This document shows, in pieces, positions 19,442 to 35,527 of a DNA stretch of 37,019 nt (position 1 is the stretch's first letter; each line of letters begins with the position of its first letter). A program made the position numbers and the translations under genes. Under the pieces are notes generated by a model. The model searched no databases and had not been told where the DNA came from. It saw nothing but the letters and a program-made list of their open reading frames with translations. The stretch is from a virus: positions 1 through 37,019 of the IMG/VR virus record IMGVR_UViG_3300031839_002056; one strand, 5' to 3'.

Positions 19442-19504
19442 GCCATAACAACCACTGCCGCGCCTGCACCGGCGGCAAACCCATCACCGCAAAGGAGCAA
19501 CCCC

Positions 19505-19873
19505 ATGGCAAAGACCGACGACCAAACCAGCACAGCCAAGAGCGGCCCGGCTGATACCACCGCAGCAGAGCAACCAGCCCTGCCCGACAACCTCGTGCTG
19601 CTCGATGAGCCCATCGTGCGCGGCACCACAACCATCACTCAGGTGGAACTGCGCAAACCCATGTCCGGCGAACTGCGTGGCGTCACCCTGAGTGACTTGC
19701 TCAACCTCGATGTCAACGCCCTGCGCAAGGTGCTGCCACGCATCACCACGCCAACCCTCACCGACATCGAGGTGGGCCGCATGGACCCCGCCGACCTGTT
19801 GGAAATCGGCGGCAAGGTGGCCAGTTTTTTGTTGAGGAAGTCGGTGAAGGCGGAAGCATTCCTCACTGCGTAG
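19505..19873 (+). CDS. E: Tail assembly chaperone E
   Basis: 122 residues. Helps the tape measure and tube assemble. Begins after AAAGGAGCAA. Core: LDEPIVRGTTTITQVELRKP, then MSGELRGVTLSDLL. The frame contains T TTT TTG at 19825-19831 in the correct phase for a -1 slip, about 45 bases before its normal stop. Confidence 0.93.
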   Translation: MAKTDDQTSTAKSGPADTTAAEQPALPDNLVLLDEPIVRGTTTITQVELRKPMSGELRGVTLSDLLNLDVNALRKVLPRITTPTLTDIEVGRMDPADLLEIGGKVASFLLRKSVKAEAFLTA

Positions 19874-27020: not shown

Positions 27021-27310
27021 GCGTCTACAAACTCGTTTGCCCAGCCTGCAACAAGCCCATGCGCATTCGTACCAGCGATGGGCAAACCCCTTGTTTCCGC
27101 TCGATCTACTACCAGTGCACCGACCTGGTGTGCGGTGCCACCTTCACCGGCTCGATGACCATCGACTTCGAGCTAAGCCCCTCGGGCCTTGAGCGCCCGT
27201 TGATAAAGCTGCCCGTAGCACCGGCCGTAGAGCGCATGAATGCCATGCGCAACCTGCGCGACCCAAACGCCCAACCAGACCTGCTCGACCAGTTGGAGGC
27301 AACCGCATGA
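27017..27310 (+). CDS. ogr: Ogr/Delta-like late transcription activator
   Basis: 97-residue zinc protein of the P2 Ogr/P4 Delta family: CPACNKPM near residues 9-16, then a second Cys pair (YQCTDLVCGATF near 36-47), then PSGLERP. It activates late promoters by contacting RNA polymerase; the three TTGTA-N11-TACAA dyads are its likely targets. It starts on the YmfL-like stop, so it is an early-operon gene, unlike P2 where ogr follows D. Confidence 0.92.
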   Translation: MSVYKLVCPACNKPMRIRTSDGQTPCFRSIYYQCTDLVCGATFTGSMTIDFELSPSGLERPLIKLPVAPAVERMNAMRNLRDPNAQPDLLDQLEATA

Positions 27311-27669
27311 ACCCCACCACCCTGCAAACCAACATCAACGCCAAGGACTACAGCGAAACCATGCAGGGCGTGGCTGAGGCGTACCTGCGCCGGCACTGGG
27401 CTGAACACCTGGACGAAGGCCAGCTATTCGACCGCGCCTGCAAGTACCTGGTTACTGCCAACGAGGTGCCGGTATTTATGGCCCAGCGCCTGGTGTACCT
27501 GGCCATGAGCAAAATCACCCCGCCAAGCGTGACCGTGGGTGTGGACTGGGGTGACAAACGATTCGGCGAAATCACCCGCGCGGTGCTGATCGACTCCCGC
27601 GATGGCATTCGCCACCTGGTACCGCGCCGCATCCTGCCGTTGCACTTCACCCAAACACCCGCTCACTAA
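27307..27669 (+). CDS. Early protein of unknown function
   Basis: 120 residues, soluble. YLRRHWAEHLDEGQLFDRACKYL suggests an N-terminal helical part; GVDWGDKRFGEI and RRILPLHF lie in the second half. No family recognised. Overlaps the ogr-like stop by 4 bases, so translation is coupled. Confidence 0.75.
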   Translation: MNPTTLQTNINAKDYSETMQGVAEAYLRRHWAEHLDEGQLFDRACKYLVTANEVPVFMAQRLVYLAMSKITPPSVTVGVDWGDKRFGEITRAVLIDSRDGIRHLVPRRILPLHFTQTPAH

Positions 27670-27734
27670 CCGTTAAAACCACCAGCCCACGCCGTGGGTA
27701 TGGGGATGTTTTGCCCGCGTTTCAGGAGGTAGCC

Positions 27735-27968
27735 ATGCAAACCGCCGTTGCCATAAAGCTGGACATGCCCAAACCGGTGGCCGAAGCCTGGCTTGCCAGC
27801 CTGCGCGCCGAGCTGCGCCTGGGCATGACTGAGCATTGGTACGACGACCGCTACCGCACCGTGCCAGAAGGCCTACGCAGCAAACGCATCCTCGACGACT
27901 TCCCGGCACTTGCCGGCCACAAACGCACCATCGCTGCCGTGCAAGCGGCGCTCAACTCGGCAGCATAA
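27735..27968 (+). CDS. Small early protein of unknown function
   Basis: 77 residues from ATG 27735, preceded by a strong AGGAGG. Contains AEAWLASLRAELRLG and YRTVPEGLRSKRILDDFPAL. A hairpin CCCAC-GCC-GTGGG (27686-27698) lies in its leader. Immediately upstream of the primase, so a replication accessory role is possible. Confidence 0.72.
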   Translation: MQTAVAIKLDMPKPVAEAWLASLRAELRLGMTEHWYDDRYRTVPEGLRSKRILDDFPALAGHKRTIAAVQAALNSAA

Positions 27969-27976
27969 GGCCCACC

Positions 27977-30784
27977 ATGCAAAACGATATTCGTACCGAA
28001 GTGCTCAGCAAGCTGGAGGCCCAATACGGCCTGCGGCACATCACCGGCACTGATTACATGCGCAAAGGCGAATGCCCCGCCTGCGGCAAAAAAGAGTTGT
28101 TCACCAGCTACCAAAAGCCCTGGGTTATCCGCTGTGGGCGCGAGAGCAAGTGCGGCCAAACCTGGCACGTTAAAGAGCTTTACCCCGAGCTGTTCGACGA
28201 CTGGAGCAAGCGCGCCCCCGCCACCGATGCCGCGCCCAATGCCTCGGCAGACAGCTACCTGACCTTTGCCCGTGGCTTTCGCCTGGACCTGGTCAAAGGC
28301 TGGTACACCCAGGAAAACTTCTACAGCCGCGAGCTTGGCATCGGCAGCGCCACCGTGCGCTTTGCCCTGGACAAAGGCGGCTACTGGGAACGCCTGATCG
28401 ACCAGCCGCAGCGCTTCGGTAAGCAGAAGGCCCGCTTCAAGCCCGGCGAAAGTTACAAGGGCCACTGGTGGTGCCCGCCCTGCGTGGAACTGCTGGAGGT
28501 CAAAGAGCTGTGGATCGTTGAGGGCATTTTCGATGCCATCGCCCTGGTGCATAACAGCTACGACGCAGTGTCGGCCATGAGCAGCAACGCCTTCCCGGAG
28601 GCGTCCTTAAAAGAGCTGGCCCGCCAGCGGGGTGGAAAATTGCCGAAGCTGGTGTGGGCGCTGGACAACGAGCCAGGCGCACACAGCTACACCCGTAAAT
28701 GGGTACGCATGGCCCGCGCCCTAGGCTACGAATGCAGCGCCGCGCAGATACCCCAGCGCGACGGCCGCAAAGTGGACTGGAACGATCTGCACCAACGCTG
28801 GCAGTTCATTGACGATGCCACCCAGCGTGATGAACGCATTCAGGCCGACATCAAGCAGGCCCGCCACGAAGGCGCCCTGCTGATTGCCGAGAGCGCCAGT
28901 GAAAAGGCGCTGATCATGTTCGAGTGGAAGAAGCGCGCCGAGTTTCACTTCGGCTTTAACAGCCGCCTGTACTGGTTCAAGTTGGATCTGGAGAAGTTCA
29001 ACAAGGCTGTGCAGGCCCTGGAAGAAAGCGACGACCAGGACGACAAGCTGCTCAACGACCGGCAAATGCGCGAGAAAGCCCTGCAGGAATCTGGCTGCAC
29101 CGTTGAAATCGCCAACTGCTACCCCGAGGCCCTGTACTACCAGCGCAACGAGGTAACGGACGAAGCCTGGTACTACCTGCGTGTGGACTTCCCGCACGAC
29201 GCACCCAGCGTGAAGAACACCTTCACCAGCACCCAGCTTTCCGCCGCCAGCGAGTTCAAAAAACGCCTGTTGGGCATGGCAGCCGGCGCCATGTTCACCG
29301 GCACTGGGCAGCAGCTGGACAAGATCATGAAAGACCAGCTCTACGCCATTAAAACCGTATCCACCATCGACTACGTGGGGTACAGCAAGGAATACGCCTG
29401 CTATGTGTACGGCGACGTGGCCATCCGTGACGGCGTGATTTACGAGGCCAACGCCGAGGATTACTTCGAGTTCCCCAAGCTGCGCCTGAAAACCCTGCAA
29501 AAGGGTGTGCCCATCAAGCTGCAGCGCGACGGTAAGCGCTACAACGAGGAATGGCTCAGGCTGCTGTGGATCTGCTTTGGCGCCCAGGGCGTGGTCACGC
29601 TGGTGTTCTGGTTTGGCTCGCTGTTCGCCGAGCAGATCCGCGCGCGCTTCCAGTCGTTTCCCTTCCTGGAGGCAACGGGCGAGGCCGGTGCCGGTAAAAC
29701 CACCCTACTCAATCTGGTGTGGAAGCTGCTCGGGCGTGACGGCTACGAGGGCTTTGACCCGATGAAATCCACCAAGGCGGGCCGCTCACGTCTGATGGGC
29801 CAAGTGTCGGGCATGCCGGTGGTGTTTCTGGAGGCAGACCGCCACGGCGACGACAAAGCCCACGCCAAAACCTTTGAGTGGGATGAGCTGAAAGACTTCT
29901 TCGGCGGCGGCACCTTGGCCACCAAGGGCGTGAAGACGGCAGGCAACGAAACCTACGAGCCACCTTTTCGCGGCACCATCGCCATCAGCCAGAACGCCGC
30001 GGTGGTTGCCCACGAAGCCATCATGACGCGCATCTGCAAGCAGCACTTTGTGCGCCCGCAGGTCACCCCGCAAAGCCGCGACGCGGCGGACAAACTCAAC
30101 GCCCTGGAAGGCGACAACCTCAGCTACTTCCTGCTGCACGCCGTAAAACAGGAAGCCCAGGTGCTGGCGTTGTTCAGCGAGCGCGTGCCCGAACACGAAG
30201 CCACCCTGCGCCGCCTACACACCCACTGCTGCAGCTGTGGCACCGCCTACCAGCCAGGCAACGAAACGGCCGCTTGTAAGGGCTGCGGCAACAGCCTGCG
30301 CGGCTACATCCGCCACGAACGCATCATCAAAAACCACGCCCAGCTGCTGGCTCTGCTCGACTGCCTGCGCCTGGTGGTAACCCTCACCGACGCCCAGGCC
30401 AGCGCCACGCAACGGCAAATCATCAGCATGGCCATTGAGCGCCAAGCCTCGATCAGCTCCGACCACCCCGCCGTCGCGGAATTCTGGGAGGTGTACGACT
30501 ACCTGCAATCGCTCGACGGCGAAGGCCCTGTGGTCAACCACTCGGTGGACGCTGGCCTTATCGCCATCAACCTCAACGAGTTCGCCGAACGCGCGGCCGA
30601 GCACAAACAGAAGCTCGCCGACGTGGCCACCCTGCGCGAGCTGCTGAAAGAAAGCCGTAGCCGCAAGTTCATCGACAGCAACAAAGCCATGCACAGCGCC
30701 GTGCGCGCCTACCAGGCCAAGCGCACCAACATGACCGTTTTCAAATCACCCACCGTCAAGTGCTGGGTGTTCAAAGAGCAGTAA
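27977..30784 (+). CDS. Primase-helicase replication protein
   Basis: 935 residues from ATG 27977. N-terminal zinc finger (C33, C36, C53, C59), TOPRIM domain with WIVEGIFDAIA near 178-190 and WALDNEPG near 226, a P-loop ATPase with GEAGAGKTT near 568-577 and VVFLEAD near 617 (helicase-like), and a second four-Cys zinc motif (CCSCGTAY...CKGCG, about 750-772). Probably primes and unwinds DNA at the phage origin. No HUH-type nuclease motif of P2 gpA is visible, so the replication module differs from P2. Confidence 0.88.
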   Translation: MQNDIRTEVLSKLEAQYGLRHITGTDYMRKGECPACGKKELFTSYQKPWVIRCGRESKCGQTWHVKELYPELFDDWSKRAPATDAAPNASADSYLTFARGFRLDLVKGWYTQENFYSRELGIGSATVRFALDKGGYWERLIDQPQRFGKQKARFKPGESYKGHWWCPPCVELLEVKELWIVEGIFDAIALVHNSYDAVSAMSSNAFPEASLKELARQRGGKLPKLVWALDNEPGAHSYTRKWVRMARALGYECSAAQIPQRDGRKVDWNDLHQRWQFIDDATQRDERIQADIKQARHEGALLIAESASEKALIMFEWKKRAEFHFGFNSRLYWFKLDLEKFNKAVQALEESDDQDDKLLNDRQMREKALQESGCTVEIANCYPEALYYQRNEVTDEAWYYLRVDFPHDAPSVKNTFTSTQLSAASEFKKRLLGMAAGAMFTGTGQQLDKIMKDQLYAIKTVSTIDYVGYSKEYACYVYGDVAIRDGVIYEANAEDYFEFPKLRLKTLQKGVPIKLQRDGKRYNEEWLRLLWICFGAQGVVTLVFWFGSLFAEQIRARFQSFPFLEATGEAGAGKTTLLNLVWKLLGRDGYEGFDPMKSTKAGRSRLMGQVSGMPVVFLEADRHGDDKAHAKTFEWDELKDFFGGGTLATKGVKTAGNETYEPPFRGTIAISQNAAVVAHEAIMTRICKQHFVRPQVTPQSRDAADKLNALEGDNLSYFLLHAVKQEAQVLALFSERVPEHEATLRRLHTHCCSCGTAYQPGNETAACKGCGNSLRGYIRHERIIKNHAQLLALLDCLRLVVTLTDAQASATQRQIISMAIERQASISSDHPAVAEFWEVYDYLQSLDGEGPVVNHSVDAGLIAINLNEFAERAAEHKQKLADVATLRELLKESRSRKFIDSNKAMHSAVRAYQAKRTNMTVFKSPTVKCWVFKEQ

Positions 30785-30786
30785 CC

Positions 30787-30810
30787 GCCAAGGCGCGGCA
30801 ACGCCACGGC
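30787..30810 (+). promoter_or_regulatory. CGGCAA-loop hairpin 1
   Basis: GGCG-CGGCAA-CGCC (30792-30805), extended by GCC/GGC across a 2x2 internal loop. It lies 23 bases before ATG 30834, with AAAGGAGAAGCACC between. First of four cassettes. Confidence 0.65.
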
Positions 30811-30833
30811 AACCAACCCAAAGGAGAAGCACC

Positions 30834-30962
30834 ATGCAAACCGATGATCAACCCACCGCCCGCGAAACCATCCTCACCCTGGCCGGCAGCGCCCTCGCGG
30901 TGGTGGCGCTGCTCGCCCTGGCCAACGTAGCCCCCGACCTGCTGCTCGGCTTTCTGCAATAA
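30834..30962 (+). CDS. Single-pass mini membrane protein, 42 residues
   Basis: Starts after AAAGGAGAAGCACC. Residues 1-12 are polar (MQTDDQPTARET); residues 13-41 are one long hydrophobic segment (LTLAGSALAVVALLALANV in part). Too short for most automated calls, but its strong ribosome site and shared leader cassette argue it is real. Function unknown; a membrane-targeted modulator of host or competing phage is one option. Confidence 0.7.
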   Translation: MQTDDQPTARETILTLAGSALAVVALLALANVAPDLLLGFLQ

Positions 30963-30968
30963 CCCACA

Positions 30969-30992
30969 GCCCTGGCGCGGCAACGCCAGGGC
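30969..30992 (+). promoter_or_regulatory. CGGCAA-loop hairpin 2
   Basis: Perfect 9-bp stem GCCCTGGCG / CGCCAGGGC around CGGCAA (30978-30983), 24 bases before ATG 31017. Confidence 0.7.
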
Positions 30993-31016
30993 AACCCGAA
31001 GCAAAGGAGAAGCACC

Positions 31017-31604
31017 ATGCAGCACCACTACAAATCCACCGCCCCTGCCACTTTGGCCATCCTCAAAGACCTGTTCCGGGCCAAGGAGGAACTACACGCC
31101 AAATCGGCCAAGTTAGGCGAGCTGTTCGGCGGCGATATCGCCCCAATGAAAGACATCACCAGCCTCTATGCAGGCGGCGTGAAACTCAGCGCTGACAAAG
31201 TCCTCGACGTGCATTGGCGTCGCCCGGATGACTGGGGGTACCGCGAGCTGCGCAGCAAGCCCGTCATTCCCAAGGGAACCGAAAAGAAGGAGCGCGCAGC
31301 CATCCGCGCCGAGCATGAACGCCTGCTTACCCTGTGGCGTGACAACTACCCCGCTCGCGTCTGCGTACACAGCTACTGGGACCGCCTCGGCATCAATAGC
31401 GGCAACCTGATGCTCTGCGGCGGCGCGCTGTTCGAGCACCAGGGCACGGCCTATTTCCGCCTGGGCTTCCAGATCGACGAAGCGCGCCACCTAGCCGCCG
31501 TCGCCGCCAGCAAACCAACCTCCGGCTGGATCGAGGGTGCCGTCGAGATTCTGCCAAGCGAGTACGAAGCGGCCGCCACGGCGTTAAAGGGCACGCAGGT
31601 ATGA
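31017..31604 (+). CDS. Early protein of unknown function
   Basis: 195 residues, soluble; LFRAKEELHAKSAKLGELFGG (landmark AKEELHAKSAKLG) suggests an N-terminal helix; VHWRRPDDWGYREL and the Trp/Tyr-rich RVCVHSYWDRLG follow. No known family. AAAGGAGAAGCACC precedes ATG. Overlaps the next gene by 4 bases. Confidence 0.75.
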   Translation: MQHHYKSTAPATLAILKDLFRAKEELHAKSAKLGELFGGDIAPMKDITSLYAGGVKLSADKVLDVHWRRPDDWGYRELRSKPVIPKGTEKKERAAIRAEHERLLTLWRDNYPARVCVHSYWDRLGINSGNLMLCGGALFEHQGTAYFRLGFQIDEARHLAAVAASKPTSGWIEGAVEILPSEYEAAATALKGTQV

Positions 31605-31957
31605 GCGCTTTCGAAAACATCGAGCTGGCCATGGCCTTCCAGTTCTGGGCCAAACCACGCGGCTACGACCTGGAGCATGACGGCGAGCAATTCCAGAACT
31701 TAGAAACCCGCAACGCCTGGCTCGGCTTCGAAGCGGCCCACGGCCCGGACGGCTGCCGCCCGAAAGGTCAGCAGCTTTACGCGCTGATCAAGAAAACCAG
31801 CGAGTACGCCCACCAGACCGACAAGTTATTCCCGGTGCGAGTTGGCACACCTCCCTACGGCAACTTTGCCGTTCACGGTGGGCCTGGCGGTGTGTACACG
31901 CTGAAAGACGTGACCCTCTACGTGATCGACGGCGACAAGCAGTACCGCCTGGGCTGA
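31601..31957 (+). CDS. Early protein of unknown function
   Basis: 118 residues, soluble. Contains MAFQFWAKPRGYDLEHD, YALIKKTSEYAHQTDKLFPV, then glycine-rich GNFAVHGGPGGVYTL. Coupled to the preceding gene by ATGA overlap. No domain recognised. Confidence 0.72.
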   Translation: MSAFENIELAMAFQFWAKPRGYDLEHDGEQFQNLETRNAWLGFEAAHGPDGCRPKGQQLYALIKKTSEYAHQTDKLFPVRVGTPPYGNFAVHGGPGGVYTLKDVTLYVIDGDKQYRLG

Positions 31958-31963
31958 CCCAAC

Positions 31964-31997
31964 TCAGCCCCGCCGAGCGGCAACTCGGTAGGGCTGA
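31964..31997 (+). promoter_or_regulatory. CGGCAA-loop hairpin 3
   Basis: Stem TCAGCCC-CG-CCGAG with CTCGG-TA-GGGCTGA around CGGCAA (31978-31983), 12 bp with one internal loop, 21 bases before ATG 32019. Confidence 0.7.
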
Positions 31998-32018
31998 ACC
32001 ATCCGAAGGAGAAACATC

Positions 32019-32978
32019 ATGCACCTACAACCGCACCACCGCTGGCCCTTGTTGGCCATGGTCGCCGCCTTGGCGGGCGTAACGGCCACCTCGGTGGCGA
32101 TGGCCATATCCGCGCTGATCGACGCGCCTGTGCTCGCCGGCCTGTTCGCCGCTGCGGCCGTGGTGCTGGATCTATTCAAGTACACCGCCTGGCCGCTGGC
32201 CCTGATGCTGCTGGTATCACGTCGCACCCTGGCCGCGCTTCTGATGATGGCCAGCGCTCTGGCCCTGGGCACCGTTTCCGGGTGGGCCACCTATGACCGC
32301 CTCATGACCTCGATCATCACCAGCCGTGCCGAACACCAGGCGAACTTTGAGCAACGCAAGGCCGACCTACTGGAGCTGCGCAGCGCCGACGCCGCCCGCA
32401 TCGTGCGGCTCGACGCCGAATCGGTCGCAGTCCATCACCAGGCCAACGCGCTACGCGAACGCGGCATGGTCACCCGCGCCCTGGAGCTGGAAAACGCAGC
32501 TCTTTCTCGAATCGACACCCAGCGCACCGCCGCCCAGGTCCGCCGCGACAACGCATCGCAGGAACTCACCGCACTGCTGAGCCAGCCGGCCAAAGCAGCA
32601 GGCCTGCCCATGCAGTTGGCCATCCTGCTGTGCATCGGTTTCGCCCTGGCGCTGGAGGTAGTCCCGGCCCTGATCCTGTCCGCGCTGCGCCCCATACCCG
32701 TTACCGGGAACACCTCGGCACCCATAACCGCCCGGCAGGAACAGCCCAAGGAACGCCCACAGGAACACGCGGAAACAACGCCAGAAACGCCCACAGAGGA
32801 AGTCCTACCGGTCGAGTTGCTGCAACTCATAGCCAGTACGGAGCGAGGAACCAAGGTGGCAGTTAGGCAGGTCGCCAAAGCGTTACGGATAGGCAGCGAC
32901 AAAGCCACCAAGCTGATGCAGAGGGCCAGCGAAGTGGGCCTGCTGAGCAAGACTGCCGCCGGTTACGTGGCGGCATAA
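32019..32978 (+). CDS. Membrane-anchored protein with C-terminal winged-helix domain
   Basis: 319 residues. Hydrophobic segments at about 11-33, 37-67 and 70-90, a long charged coiled coil at about 95-190, another membrane segment at about 197-222, a Pro/Glu/Thr-rich linker (224-262) and a winged-helix-like end (VAVRQVAKALRIGSDKATKL, 280-299, then SEVGLLSKTAAGYV). The end resembles the DNA-binding part of replication or partition proteins. No family recognised as a whole. GAAGGAGAAACATC precedes ATG. Confidence 0.75.
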   Translation: MHLQPHHRWPLLAMVAALAGVTATSVAMAISALIDAPVLAGLFAAAAVVLDLFKYTAWPLALMLLVSRRTLAALLMMASALALGTVSGWATYDRLMTSIITSRAEHQANFEQRKADLLELRSADAARIVRLDAESVAVHHQANALRERGMVTRALELENAALSRIDTQRTAAQVRRDNASQELTALLSQPAKAAGLPMQLAILLCIGFALALEVVPALILSALRPIPVTGNTSAPITARQEQPKERPQEHAETTPETPTEEVLPVELLQLIASTERGTKVAVRQVAKALRIGSDKATKLMQRASEVGLLSKTAAGYVAA

Positions 32979-32982
32979 AAAA

Positions 32983-33012
32983 GGCCCTGGTGGGCGGCAA
33001 CCCACCAGGGCC
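32983..33012 (+). promoter_or_regulatory. CGGCAA-loop hairpin 4
   Basis: Perfect 12-bp stem GGCCCTGGTGGG / CCCACCAGGGCC around CGGCAA (32995-33000), 25 bases before ATG 33038. No T run follows, so it is not a terminator. Confidence 0.75.
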
Positions 33013-33037
33013 ACACCAACCCCAAAGGAGAAACACC

Positions 33038-33640
33038 ATGCAAGCGAAACCCCAAGAAGTCAGCGCCGATAAGGCTACCACACCAGGCCTACAAGCCCTG
33101 CAATGGACGCACGCGAAACCCACCGTGTCAGGTGCCTACTGGGTGCGTGGCTTCCGAATCGGTGAACCAGATTCCCGCCCGGCTTTGGTCGAAGTGGCCA
33201 TCGATGAGGACGGCACGCTGCTGTGCAACATGAACGACAGCAATACCAACGACCAAACGCGCGAATGGTCATGGGTCGAAGACCTGGCCGAGCGTTTCGA
33301 GTGGTGCGGGCCGCTGCAAGCCGAAACAAAGCAGAGTGGCCGTGGGGTGACAGATGATGCCCACCCGATGCAGCCGATCGTGTTCGCACCGGATGGCGTG
33401 ATCAGGTTCAAGGAAAACCGAATTGTCACCCACTTGCTGGACTTCGCCACTCCGTTGGGTTGCGGGATGAACCAGTTGGCAGTCCTGGACTTCACCGACG
33501 ACGAGCGTATGCAATTCGCTCAGCTTATTGGGTATAGCGTCAGCGGTTACGGCGACCTGAGATACGCCAGCCCGGAGTCAGTCCAACACGCAGACTGGAT
33601 TGCTGCTGCCATGCTGGCAGCGCAAGGCGGTGCAGCATGA
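33038..33640 (+). CDS. Conserved phage protein of unknown function
   Basis: 200 residues from ATG 33038, after AAAGGAGAAACACC. N-terminal half: SGAYWVRGFRIGEPD and VEVAIDEDGTLLCN, resembling small host-interaction domains. C-terminal half carries MNQLAVLDFTDDERMQFAQLIGYS (landmarks GMNQLAVL and MQFAQLIGYSVSGYGDL), a block common in phage early regions. Coupled to the next start by overlap. Confidence 0.78.
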   Translation: MQAKPQEVSADKATTPGLQALQWTHAKPTVSGAYWVRGFRIGEPDSRPALVEVAIDEDGTLLCNMNDSNTNDQTREWSWVEDLAERFEWCGPLQAETKQSGRGVTDDAHPMQPIVFAPDGVIRFKENRIVTHLLDFATPLGCGMNQLAVLDFTDDERMQFAQLIGYSVSGYGDLRYASPESVQHADWIAAAMLAAQGGAA

Positions 33641-33786
33641 AGACTTGCACCCTCGGCAAGCGTCACACCTGGACGTTTTCTCACAACGTCATCATCCAAC
33701 AGCAGAACGGTCGCTCAATCAGGATCAGTAAGCGCGGCCTGTACAACTGCGCCTGCGGTGCCACGAAAAAAGGCGGTGCCCAATGA
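33637..33786 (+). CDS. Small Cys-containing protein, 49 residues
   Basis: Starts on the upstream stop (ATGA) and ends overlapping the next start. Sequence landmarks: MKTCTLGKRHTW and LYNCACGAT. With only three cysteines a full zinc site would need a His or a partner. Missed by length filters, but both overlaps support translation. Confidence 0.65.
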   Translation: MKTCTLGKRHTWTFSHNVIIQQQNGRSIRISKRGLYNCACGATKKGGAQ

Positions 33787-33983
33787 GCCGCACCCGCCCA
33801 CCGCTAGCAGGCCACCGGCTGGATCTGCCCAGCATCTGCGACATCTGCCACAAGGCCAGGTCCACCCGCAACCACGCCAAGTGCAGCCGCATCCGCCAAA
33901 GCCGTAAGGCCGTCGAATGGGCCGACCTGCAGGCCGAAAAAGCCGCCGCTAAACAAGCCAAGGGGCCACGTTATGCACGTTGA
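33783..33983 (+). CDS. Small putative zinc protein
   Basis: 66 residues. CDICHKARSTRNHAKC gives a C-x2-C and a distal His/Cys pair; the C-terminus is a basic Ala/Lys helix (QAEKAAAKQAKG). Likely nucleic-acid binding; function unknown. Confidence 0.7.
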   Translation: MSRTRPPLAGHRLDLPSICDICHKARSTRNHAKCSRIRQSRKAVEWADLQAEKAAAKQAKGPRYAR

Positions 33984-34299
33984 AAACACCATCACCATCA
34001 GCGTTCGCCAGAGCACCGGCAGTTATATCGCCAGGGCCAGCGGTCACAAGCCAACGGCGAGCTGCACCACCGGCGCAACACAGGCTGCAGAGTCGCTCGC
34101 TAAAAAGCTTGGCCTGGCCCCCGGCTTGCTCCAGGAACAATCAAGCGAGGGGCTGGGTTACGGCTGCTCGCGCTTCACCCATACCGGCGAGCTGGCCACC
34201 AACACCAGCGACAAAGCGCACTGCCCAAACTGCGGCATCTGCCACACCCGCACGGAAACCTGCAACGAGGCCAAGGCCCGTTTCGGCGGTGCAGCATGA
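33973..34299 (+). CDS. Early protein of unknown function with Cys-rich tail
   Basis: 108 residues. N-terminal strand NTITISVRQSTGSYIARA, then TTGATQAAESLAKKLG, and a C-terminal CPNCGICHTRTETC cluster that could bind zinc. Overlaps neighbours on both sides. No family recognised. Confidence 0.72.
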   Translation: MHVENTITISVRQSTGSYIARASGHKPTASCTTGATQAAESLAKKLGLAPGLLQEQSSEGLGYGCSRFTHTGELATNTSDKAHCPNCGICHTRTETCNEAKARFGGAA

Positions 34300-34673
34300 A
34301 AGCGCTGAGCATTCGCCAGCCCTGGGCCTGGCTGATCGTCAACGGTCACAAAGACATCGAGAATCGCAGCTGGGCGACCAAGTTCCGTGGCCCGGTACTG
34401 ATCCACGCGGCCAAGGGCATGACCGGTGCCGAATACAACGACGCCTACCACTTCGCCCTTGAAGTGGGCATCAAGATCCCGAGCTTCCACGACTTGGAGC
34501 GCGGCGGGATCGTCGGCATGGCCACCATCACCGGCTGCGATGACAACAGCCTGTCGCCCTGGTTCTTCGGCAAGTTCGGTTTCGAGCTGGCCGACGCCAA
34601 GCCCCTGCCGTTTCTCCCATACAAGGGCCAACTGGGCTTCTTCGATATCGAGTATCAGGCGGTGCAGCCATGA
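34296..34673 (+). CDS. ASCH-domain protein
   Basis: 125 residues. The ASCH pattern is clear: ALSIRQPWAWLIVNGHKDIENRSW (landmarks SIRQPWAWLI and KDIENRSW), then RGPVLIHAAKG and IVGMATITGC. ASCH proteins bind RNA or act on modified nucleosides (as in the YqfB amidohydrolase). Next to a DNA methylase, an RNA- or nucleotide-modification role is possible but not shown. Confidence 0.88.
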   Translation: MKALSIRQPWAWLIVNGHKDIENRSWATKFRGPVLIHAAKGMTGAEYNDAYHFALEVGIKIPSFHDLERGGIVGMATITGCDDNSLSPWFFGKFGFELADAKPLPFLPYKGQLGFFDIEYQAVQP

Positions 34674-35527
34674 TCATAAAAGCGCCTGTTATCCGCTACC
34701 ACGGCAGCAAGTTCAGGCTTGCGAGCTGGGTAATAGAGCACTTCCCGCCACACCAGGTGTACATCGAGCCATTTGGTGGGGCCGCTGGTGTGCTGATGCA
34801 AAAAAACCGAAGCCCTGGAGAGGTTTACAACGACCTGGACGACGATATCGTCAACCTATTTCGCGTGCTGCAGAACGCATCAACACGTGAAGAACTTAGC
34901 GATCGGCTAATACTCACCCCGTACGCACGAACCGAGTTTGAGCTGGCATGGATATTCACCGAAGAACCGGTAGAGCGTGCCCGCCGTACTGTCATCCGAG
35001 CACAGATGGGATTTGGCTCATCCGGCGCGACAAAAGCCACCACTGGCTTTCGCGTCGACCCATACCGCAAGTACGGCACGGCACCGCAGTTGTGGGCACG
35101 CTACCCCGACCAATTGGCCGCGATCGGGAAGCGTCTGCAGGGGGTACTGATCGAGAACAGGCCGGCGATCGACATCATTCTTGCCAATGACTCACCCTCT
35201 GCCCTGCACTACATCGATCCTCCATATATGCACTCAACTCGCGTACACGGGGCGCAGAAAGGCCGCTATTACAGGCACGAACTGAGCGATGACGAGCACG
35301 TAGAGCTTCTGATCACACTCAAAAACTTGCAGGGCATGGTCGTGCTGAGCGGCTACCCGAATGAGCTGTATTCCGAGTACCTAAGCGACTGGGCGCAGAA
35401 CACAACTCAGGCCCGGATAGCTGCATTTCGCGGCACTGCCGCACGAACTGAATGCCTATGGCTAAACCCCGCTTGCATGGATGCCTTGCACTCCAAGGGT
35501 TTACAGCTGGAGGTGGTCAATGCCTAA
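34670..35527 (+). CDS. Dam-type DNA adenine N6-methyltransferase (copy 2)
   Basis: 285-residue D12-class methylase: IRYHGSKFRLASW (residues 8-20), EPFGGAAGVL near 36-45, YNDLDDDIVNLF near 56-67 and catalytic DPPY near 183-186. Only distantly like copy 1 at 1761 outside the motifs. Expressed early, ATGA-coupled to the ASCH gene, whereas copy 1 is late. Target probably a short adenine site. Confidence 0.9.
   Translation: MIIKAPVIRYHGSKFRLASWVIEHFPPHQVYIEPFGGAAGVLMQKNRSPGEVYNDLDDDIVNLFRVLQNASTREELSDRLILTPYARTEFELAWIFTEEPVERARRTVIRAQMGFGSSGATKATTGFRVDPYRKYGTAPQLWARYPDQLAAIGKRLQGVLIENRPAIDIILANDSPSALHYIDPPYMHSTRVHGAQKGRYYRHELSDDEHVELLITLKNLQGMVVLSGYPNELYSEYLSDWAQNTTQARIAAFRGTAARTECLWLNPACMDALHSKGLQLEVVNA

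Follow-up and report, generated by a model that had tools for sequence, protein, structure and literature searches.

The window, that is, the whole stretch of DNA analyzed here, is virus record IMGVR_UViG_3300031839_002056 (37,019 bases), the early region of which resembles that of Peduoviridae such as Dobby (Citexvirus) and Sirocco. The primase/helicase at 27965–30784 (plus strand, as are the hairpins and the genes behind them; phrog_1139) is 62–63% identical over its full length to those of P2-like Pseudomonas phages; it precedes hairpin 1 in these phages, and all four hairpins of the window lie within three kilobases after it. Specifically, hairpin 1 (30787–30810) begins 2 nt past the primase stop codon, comprises 7 bp with a 2 × 2 internal loop, and is followed by the Shine–Dalgarno (SD) and start context AAAGGAGAAGCACCATGCA (30820–30838) of an ORF for a small membrane-like protein of 42 residues (30834–30962). 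Hairpin 2 (30969–30992; 9 bp) stands before ORF 31017–31604 (phrog_2314, function unknown; SD and start context at 31003–31021), and hairpin 3 (31964–31997; 13 bp with one C·A mismatch) before ORF 32019–32978, which encodes a membrane-like protein of 319 residues (SD and start context at 32006–32023). Hairpin 4 (32983–33012; 12 bp) leads into ORF 33038–33640 (SD and start context at 33025–33042), the ‘KATT’ slot gene, which has the conserved N-terminus MQAKPQEVSADKATT and a variable remainder. The loop is CGGCAA in every case (30796–30801, 30978–30983, 31978–31983 and 32995–33000). The hairpins start 2–6 nt after the upstream stop codon, and each ends 21–25 nt ahead of an ATGCA start, the distances from 3′ arm to ATG being 23, 24, 21 and 25 nt for hairpins 1–4. 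No promoter-like site was found between the four hairpins, which are therefore probably intercistronic in a single early transcript, an arrangement that is inferred.

Although the strings involved are short, their combination is confined to these positions. The bare hexamer CGGCAA is not rare (63 occurrences in the window versus 39 expected), and only these four sites join it to a leader of this kind; the SD–start string AAGGAGAAGCACCATGCA, with up to three mismatches allowed, occurs exactly four times in the window compared to 0.03 expected. A covariance model trained on 40 sequences, the window’s four hairpins included, scored hairpins 1–4 at 65.1, 62.1, 59.6 and 68.8 bits, and nothing else in the window exceeded 16 bits. 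A weak match (15.7 bits) at 19468–19511 places CGGCAA before a tail-region gene at 19505, with no supporting stem. Three of the four hairpins fold better than shuffled sequences (z –2.9 to –3.7), and hairpin 1 folds no better than its shuffles (z –0.55). In the predicted folds the SD and AUG are essentially open, outside stable structure. No T run follows any of the four hairpins on the plus strand, and intrinsic termination on that strand was therefore rejected. On the minus strand, TTTTTT after hairpin 4 forms a strong terminator-like site, and this hairpin may also end antisense transcription. The first-pass annotation had placed four CGGCAA-loop hairpins before 30834, 31017, 32019 and 33038, with stems of 7, 9, 12 and 12 pairs, 21–25 bases to ATGCA, and no T runs that would make them terminators. 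The positions and spacings held, as did the stem lengths except for hairpin 3; the terminator claim held on the plus strand, with the minus strand at hairpin 4 as the qualification.

Across phages, the genes behind the leaders belong to 22 unrelated families. The gene behind the last hairpin has the conserved N-terminus MQxxxxx..xKATT fused to ~12 unrelated C-terminal families, and it is possible that the leader, together with the first 15 codons of this gene, resembles a slot for exchangeable genes.

Stem covariation and distribution of the hairpin family

Relatives were collected in two ways. A DNA pattern of loop plus SD brought in ~20 additional contigs of Pseudomonas phages, each holding at most four such hairpins, and a second sample was drawn via the primase (80 virus and 80 genome contigs), avoiding choice by loop. 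SD-proximal hairpins were taken from these primase loci regardless of loop sequence, after a first loop-agnostic filter proved too loose and was replaced. Because loci were found via either primase or hairpin, the sampling itself accounts for part of the association between them. The strong SD-proximal hairpins nearly all had hexaloops, mainly CTGCAA, TTGCAG and CGGCAA. Among 76 unique hairpins, 11 of 12 stem pairs were changed on both sides, and the covariation score of 0.449 compared with 0.131 for shuffles (none of 500 as high) and at most 0.111 for slid controls. The four hairpins are thus members of one structured family with strong stem covariation; a search of the region against Rfam returned no family at the gathering score, and the literature searched held no description of such a hairpin element.

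The covariance model detected the leaders in 36 of 299 sampled Pseudomonas genomes, with the strong matches sitting in primase-type prophages in the first 17 genomes inspected. The element is specific to the primase-to-integrase region of P2-like (Peduoviridae) phages.

Loop identity within and between phages

Phages with several leaders carry the loop CGGCAA, CTGCAA or CAGCAA (the last in L244), and each is uniform for one of them, the sole true exception being a single hairpin of L243, which departs by one base (CGGCGA). Of 54 loci, a script marked 8 as having mixed loops; the L243 variant accounts for one of these, and in the other seven the deviating hexamers are chance occurrences that lack a true stem or an ATGC leader. 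When first and last hairpins of the same phage were compared, the loops were identical in 28 of 28 pairs, with a stem identity of 0.45 versus 0.46 for unrelated positions. At the same position in different phages, stem identity rose to 0.58–0.60 and loops matched in only 0.45–0.53 of comparisons. The spacer between SD and ATG behaved as the loop did, with an identity of 0.98 within a phage and 0.79–0.90 between phages. Stems therefore resemble the same-position stems of other phages and not the neighboring stems of their own, and loops are shared within the phage. The rule also held out of sample: 16 multi-hairpin prophages (45 hairpins), fetched only after it was stated, were all pure, nine for CGGCAA and seven for CTGCAA.

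Loop type also changes in a concerted fashion. On a primase tree of 40 phages it changes at least seven times, at least five of which are forced by well supported branches, and all hairpins always switch together. This is seen most closely between the sister clades L231/L233/L235 (CGGCAA) and L230/L232/L234/L242/L278 (CTGCAA), in which two to three orthologous hairpins have nearly the same stems and the other loop throughout. Two prophages of one host may have different loops (L314, with four copies of CGGCAA, beside L315 with CGCCAA; L317 beside L318), indicating that the host does not set the loop. The first-pass annotation had read the compensating stems and an invariant loop as the mark of a selected RNA element. 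The covariation given above supports a selected element; the loop proved invariant within a phage and not across phages. Relatives with the same genes and no conservation of loop or stem would have refuted that reading, and a survey of ~200 loci did not do so. Its further proposal, that a loop-binding protein or small RNA could coordinate these early genes, remains unproved as to the effector, as it had itself said, and no antisense RNA was found. Invariance within a phage combined with variation between phages is stronger evidence for a trans-acting reader than a universal loop would be.

Relatives with a single leader hairpin carry several loops (TTGCAG, TTGCAC, TTGGCC, CGCCAA and TAGCCG), so a loop of the CNGCAA type is not needed everywhere. 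In one such lineage (L132, L147–L204 and others) the hairpin reads gaggag[TTGCAG]ctcccc, so that the stem is almost unchanged and the loop is CTGCAA in exact reverse complement; the palindrome looks inverted, and the covariance model matches the minus strand there. Another (L315, L318, L322, L323, L324 and L326) has the loop CGCCAA (CGCCAC in L318) within the stem gtcgaggag...ctccccgac. Each phage among the Xanthomonas loci (L267–L273, L279 and L283) has a pair of leader hairpins. One, ccccga[TTGGCG]tcgggg, is constant in most of them; the other, gcggtg[variable loop]caccgc, has a constant stem that bears the loops CTGTAA, CTCGAA, CTGTCA or CGTCAA, the reverse of the Pseudomonas rule. In Stenotrophomonas and Pseudoxanthomonas phages the model gave weaker matches, located at the primase or upstream of it (L125:1810–1861, L286:8006–8057 and L274:7987–8050).

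Candidate readers of the loop

Two small proteins are candidates for reading the loop, in both cases by association only. One is a basic zinc-knuckle protein of 66 residues (33783–33983, plus strand; phrog_10699, function unknown) with the motif C-X2-C-X8-H-X2-C and the invariant residues C19, D20, C22, R26, H31, C34, S35, R38 and Q39. Its gene, in many cases the first one after the last hairpin, occurs in 82 of the 112 loci with hairpins versus 1 of the 15 without (p = 8 × 10⁻⁷, uncorrected), and in 14 of the 16 contigs that were found by hairpin pattern alone and continue for 500 nt or more downstream. The canonical loop of the single-hairpin lineage, TTGCAG, goes together with the gene (45/53 versus 5/19). 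After correction for phylogeny, however, the link between gene and hairpin is not significant (3.2 independent pairs of the tree in favor and 0.3 opposed, median p 0.25). Eight C-type phages have intact hairpins without the gene, which in six cases is missing from the whole host genome, and the prophages of these six genomes keep canonical loops. None of the protein’s residues tracks the second loop base beyond chance. A structure search (pLDDT 77) gave no significant PDB match, and no Pfam match was obtained at E values up to 1.

The other candidate is a helical protein of 77 residues encoded just upstream of the primase (27735–27968, plus strand; phrog_3967). Its alleles track the loop best, with a nearest-neighbor accuracy of 0.86 and a partial Mantel p of 0.03 (no multiple-test correction), although L255 breaks the pattern and the protein also occurs in phages without hairpins. 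Between the sister clades described above, this protein and its neighbor (27307–27669) are swapped for divergent alleles (60/85 and 67/120 fixed differences), as compared with 6/156, 13/97 and 47/939 in other genes. The two small pre-primase genes at 27307–27968 are strongly divergent between otherwise close phages. Residue-to-loop association among neighboring proteins reached 0.94 versus 0.84 in permutations for the protein beginning at 27307, and several others were slightly above their permutations, which ignore phylogeny. More generally, the association tests handle mosaic phages imperfectly. A structure search with the phrog_3967 protein (pLDDT 93.5) gave no significant PDB match. Neither candidate is decisive or proven.

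An ASCH-domain protein followed by a D12 adenine methyltransferase is encoded at 34296–35527. The ASCH domain has a PUA-like fold and possibly binds RNA. These two proteins are unlikely loop readers, with homologs in 3 of 50 and 4 of 50 hairpin phages, respectively.

Interpretation and comparison with known systems

We propose that a single type of mRNA leader is present here in four copies, each composed of a stem unconstrained in sequence, a hexaloop, 8–15 nt, a strong SD and ATGCA, and that these leaders may form a small post-transcriptional regulon within the early operon that follows the phage primase. A phage-encoded trans-acting factor, most likely a small RNA-binding protein, would recognize the loop as C-N-G-C-A-A closed by G–C, its second base marking the identity of the phage. 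Bound to the hairpin, where the ribosome footprint has its upstream border, such a factor would change translation initiation and/or mRNA stability of all hairpin genes together. The hairpin structure, its covariation, the sharing of loops within a phage, their concerted switching between phages and the restriction to one phage region are observed; binding of a factor, its protein nature, its action on translation or stability, and its identity as the zinc-knuckle or phrog_3967 protein are inferred only, without binding, expression, transcript or protein data, and whether the effect is activating or repressing is undetermined. Taken as a whole, a phage loop reader that coordinates the hairpin genes as a post-transcriptional regulon has, in our judgment, as much standing against it as for it.

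A more specific alternative, possible but less probable, is that the zinc-knuckle protein itself reads the loop and regulates translation, in a role analogous to that of Com in Mu; as the product of the last gene in the hairpin-controlled region, it might then be autoregulated. Its association with hairpin loci, including the contigs found by hairpin pattern alone, its position behind the last hairpin, its invariant residues and its co-occurrence with TTGCAG favor this idea, whereas the lack of significance after phylogenetic correction, the absence from six host genomes and the lack of any residue that follows the second loop base speak against it. Less likely, the loop could be the target of a phage-encoded antisense RNA pairing through UUGCNG. 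Concerted switching and an identity mark of a single base are typical of RNA–RNA recognition, and CNGCAA is an exposed hexaloop. However, when all alignable TTGCNG, TGCNG, TTGCN and GCNG sites were compared on both strands across ~36 kb of the sister prophages, only the hairpins switched with the loop, bar one GCNG site in late-gene DNA, and clustering of TTGCNG sites across 58 loci gave the same result. Nor was there a conserved complement to the SD region, or an Rfam RNA in the region. Insofar as no loop-complementary site switches with the loop, a protein reader is more likely than an RNA.

It is also improbable that the element acts as DNA, either as a single-stranded or cruciform hairpin read by the primase or another replication protein, or as a site of cassette exchange. 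The constant proximity to the primase fits this idea, as does the single-hairpin loop TTGCAG, which as the reverse complement of CTGCAA would be the same duplex site in the other orientation, and unrelated gene families behind the leaders are expected of exchangeable cassettes. Against it, every copy has one orientation and a fixed distance before SD and ATGC, the SD–ATG spacer is shared within a phage along with the loop, and primase similarity tracks loop type poorly (nearest-neighbor accuracy 0.52 among distant primases). Similarly doubtful is the view that these are plain intercistronic hairpins that insulate genes or stabilize mRNA ends, with loops and SD regions alike within a phage only through recombination that homogenizes short repeats. 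Their start so soon after the upstream stop codon is consistent with this view, and repeated leaders could recombine, but a conversion tract would have to alter loop and SD region while sparing the 3′ arm between them, in each hairpin separately. Moreover, the stems stay orthologous by position, and stability alone leaves the concerted base switch unexplained.

Returning to the phage-encoded loop reader, a bolder form of the proposal regards the loop as a barcode: one reader would control interchangeable early genes via the shared hexaloop, reader and all loops would change together, and the regulon would be kept private among co-resident related prophages. We lean slightly against this version. 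Hairpins before many phage genes are usually read as stabilizers or terminators; loops that are shared within and switched between genomes point instead to a specific post-transcriptional regulator common to several unrelated early genes. The family offers ready co-evolution data with which to look for an RNA-binding protein and to define what it recognizes, and may provide orthogonal hairpin–reader pairs for gene control.

Among known systems, Com of Mu is a small zinc-finger protein whose binding target, a short hairpin with a hexaloop, precedes the start of mom (PMC6483171). The window likewise has hairpins whose loops are six bases long and which precede phage translation starts; as for a small zinc-finger protein of a temperate phage that controls translation, the zinc-knuckle protein is only a candidate, with binding and activation inferred. 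Com, however, acts on one gene, whereas several genes here share the CNGCAA loop; it recognizes CC(N)2-3GAG, a motif not met by CGGCAA, CTGCAA or CAGCAA; and the mom start codon lies in a translation inhibition structure, a feature not met by the open SD and AUG of the window. The zinc-knuckle candidate has no detectable Pfam match to Com. The nearest system in architecture is SAS/ESAS of cluster K mycobacteriophages, in which a repeated SD and start codon sequence stands before many genes (PMC3203893); about half of these have an upstream inverted repeat, and the consensus differs between phages (PMC3203893). The repeated SD–start sequence before several phage genes is matched here, but the conserved 17-bp arms and variable spacer are not, as the arms in our hairpins covary and differ and the loop is fixed. 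Because these defining features were tested and not met, the window element belongs to neither system. RsmA/CsrA leader sites are also hairpins near the SD in Pseudomonas leaders, bound by a host-encoded factor through the loop motif GGA. That motif is absent from every loop here, and loops differ between prophages of one host. Finally, T4 has intercistronic hairpins with the fixed loop CUUCGG, which does not vary and is accounted for by its exceptional stability. Like these, the hairpins described here are elements of phage mRNA that keep one loop on changing stems, but they differ in that their loop is phage-specific and switches in concert.
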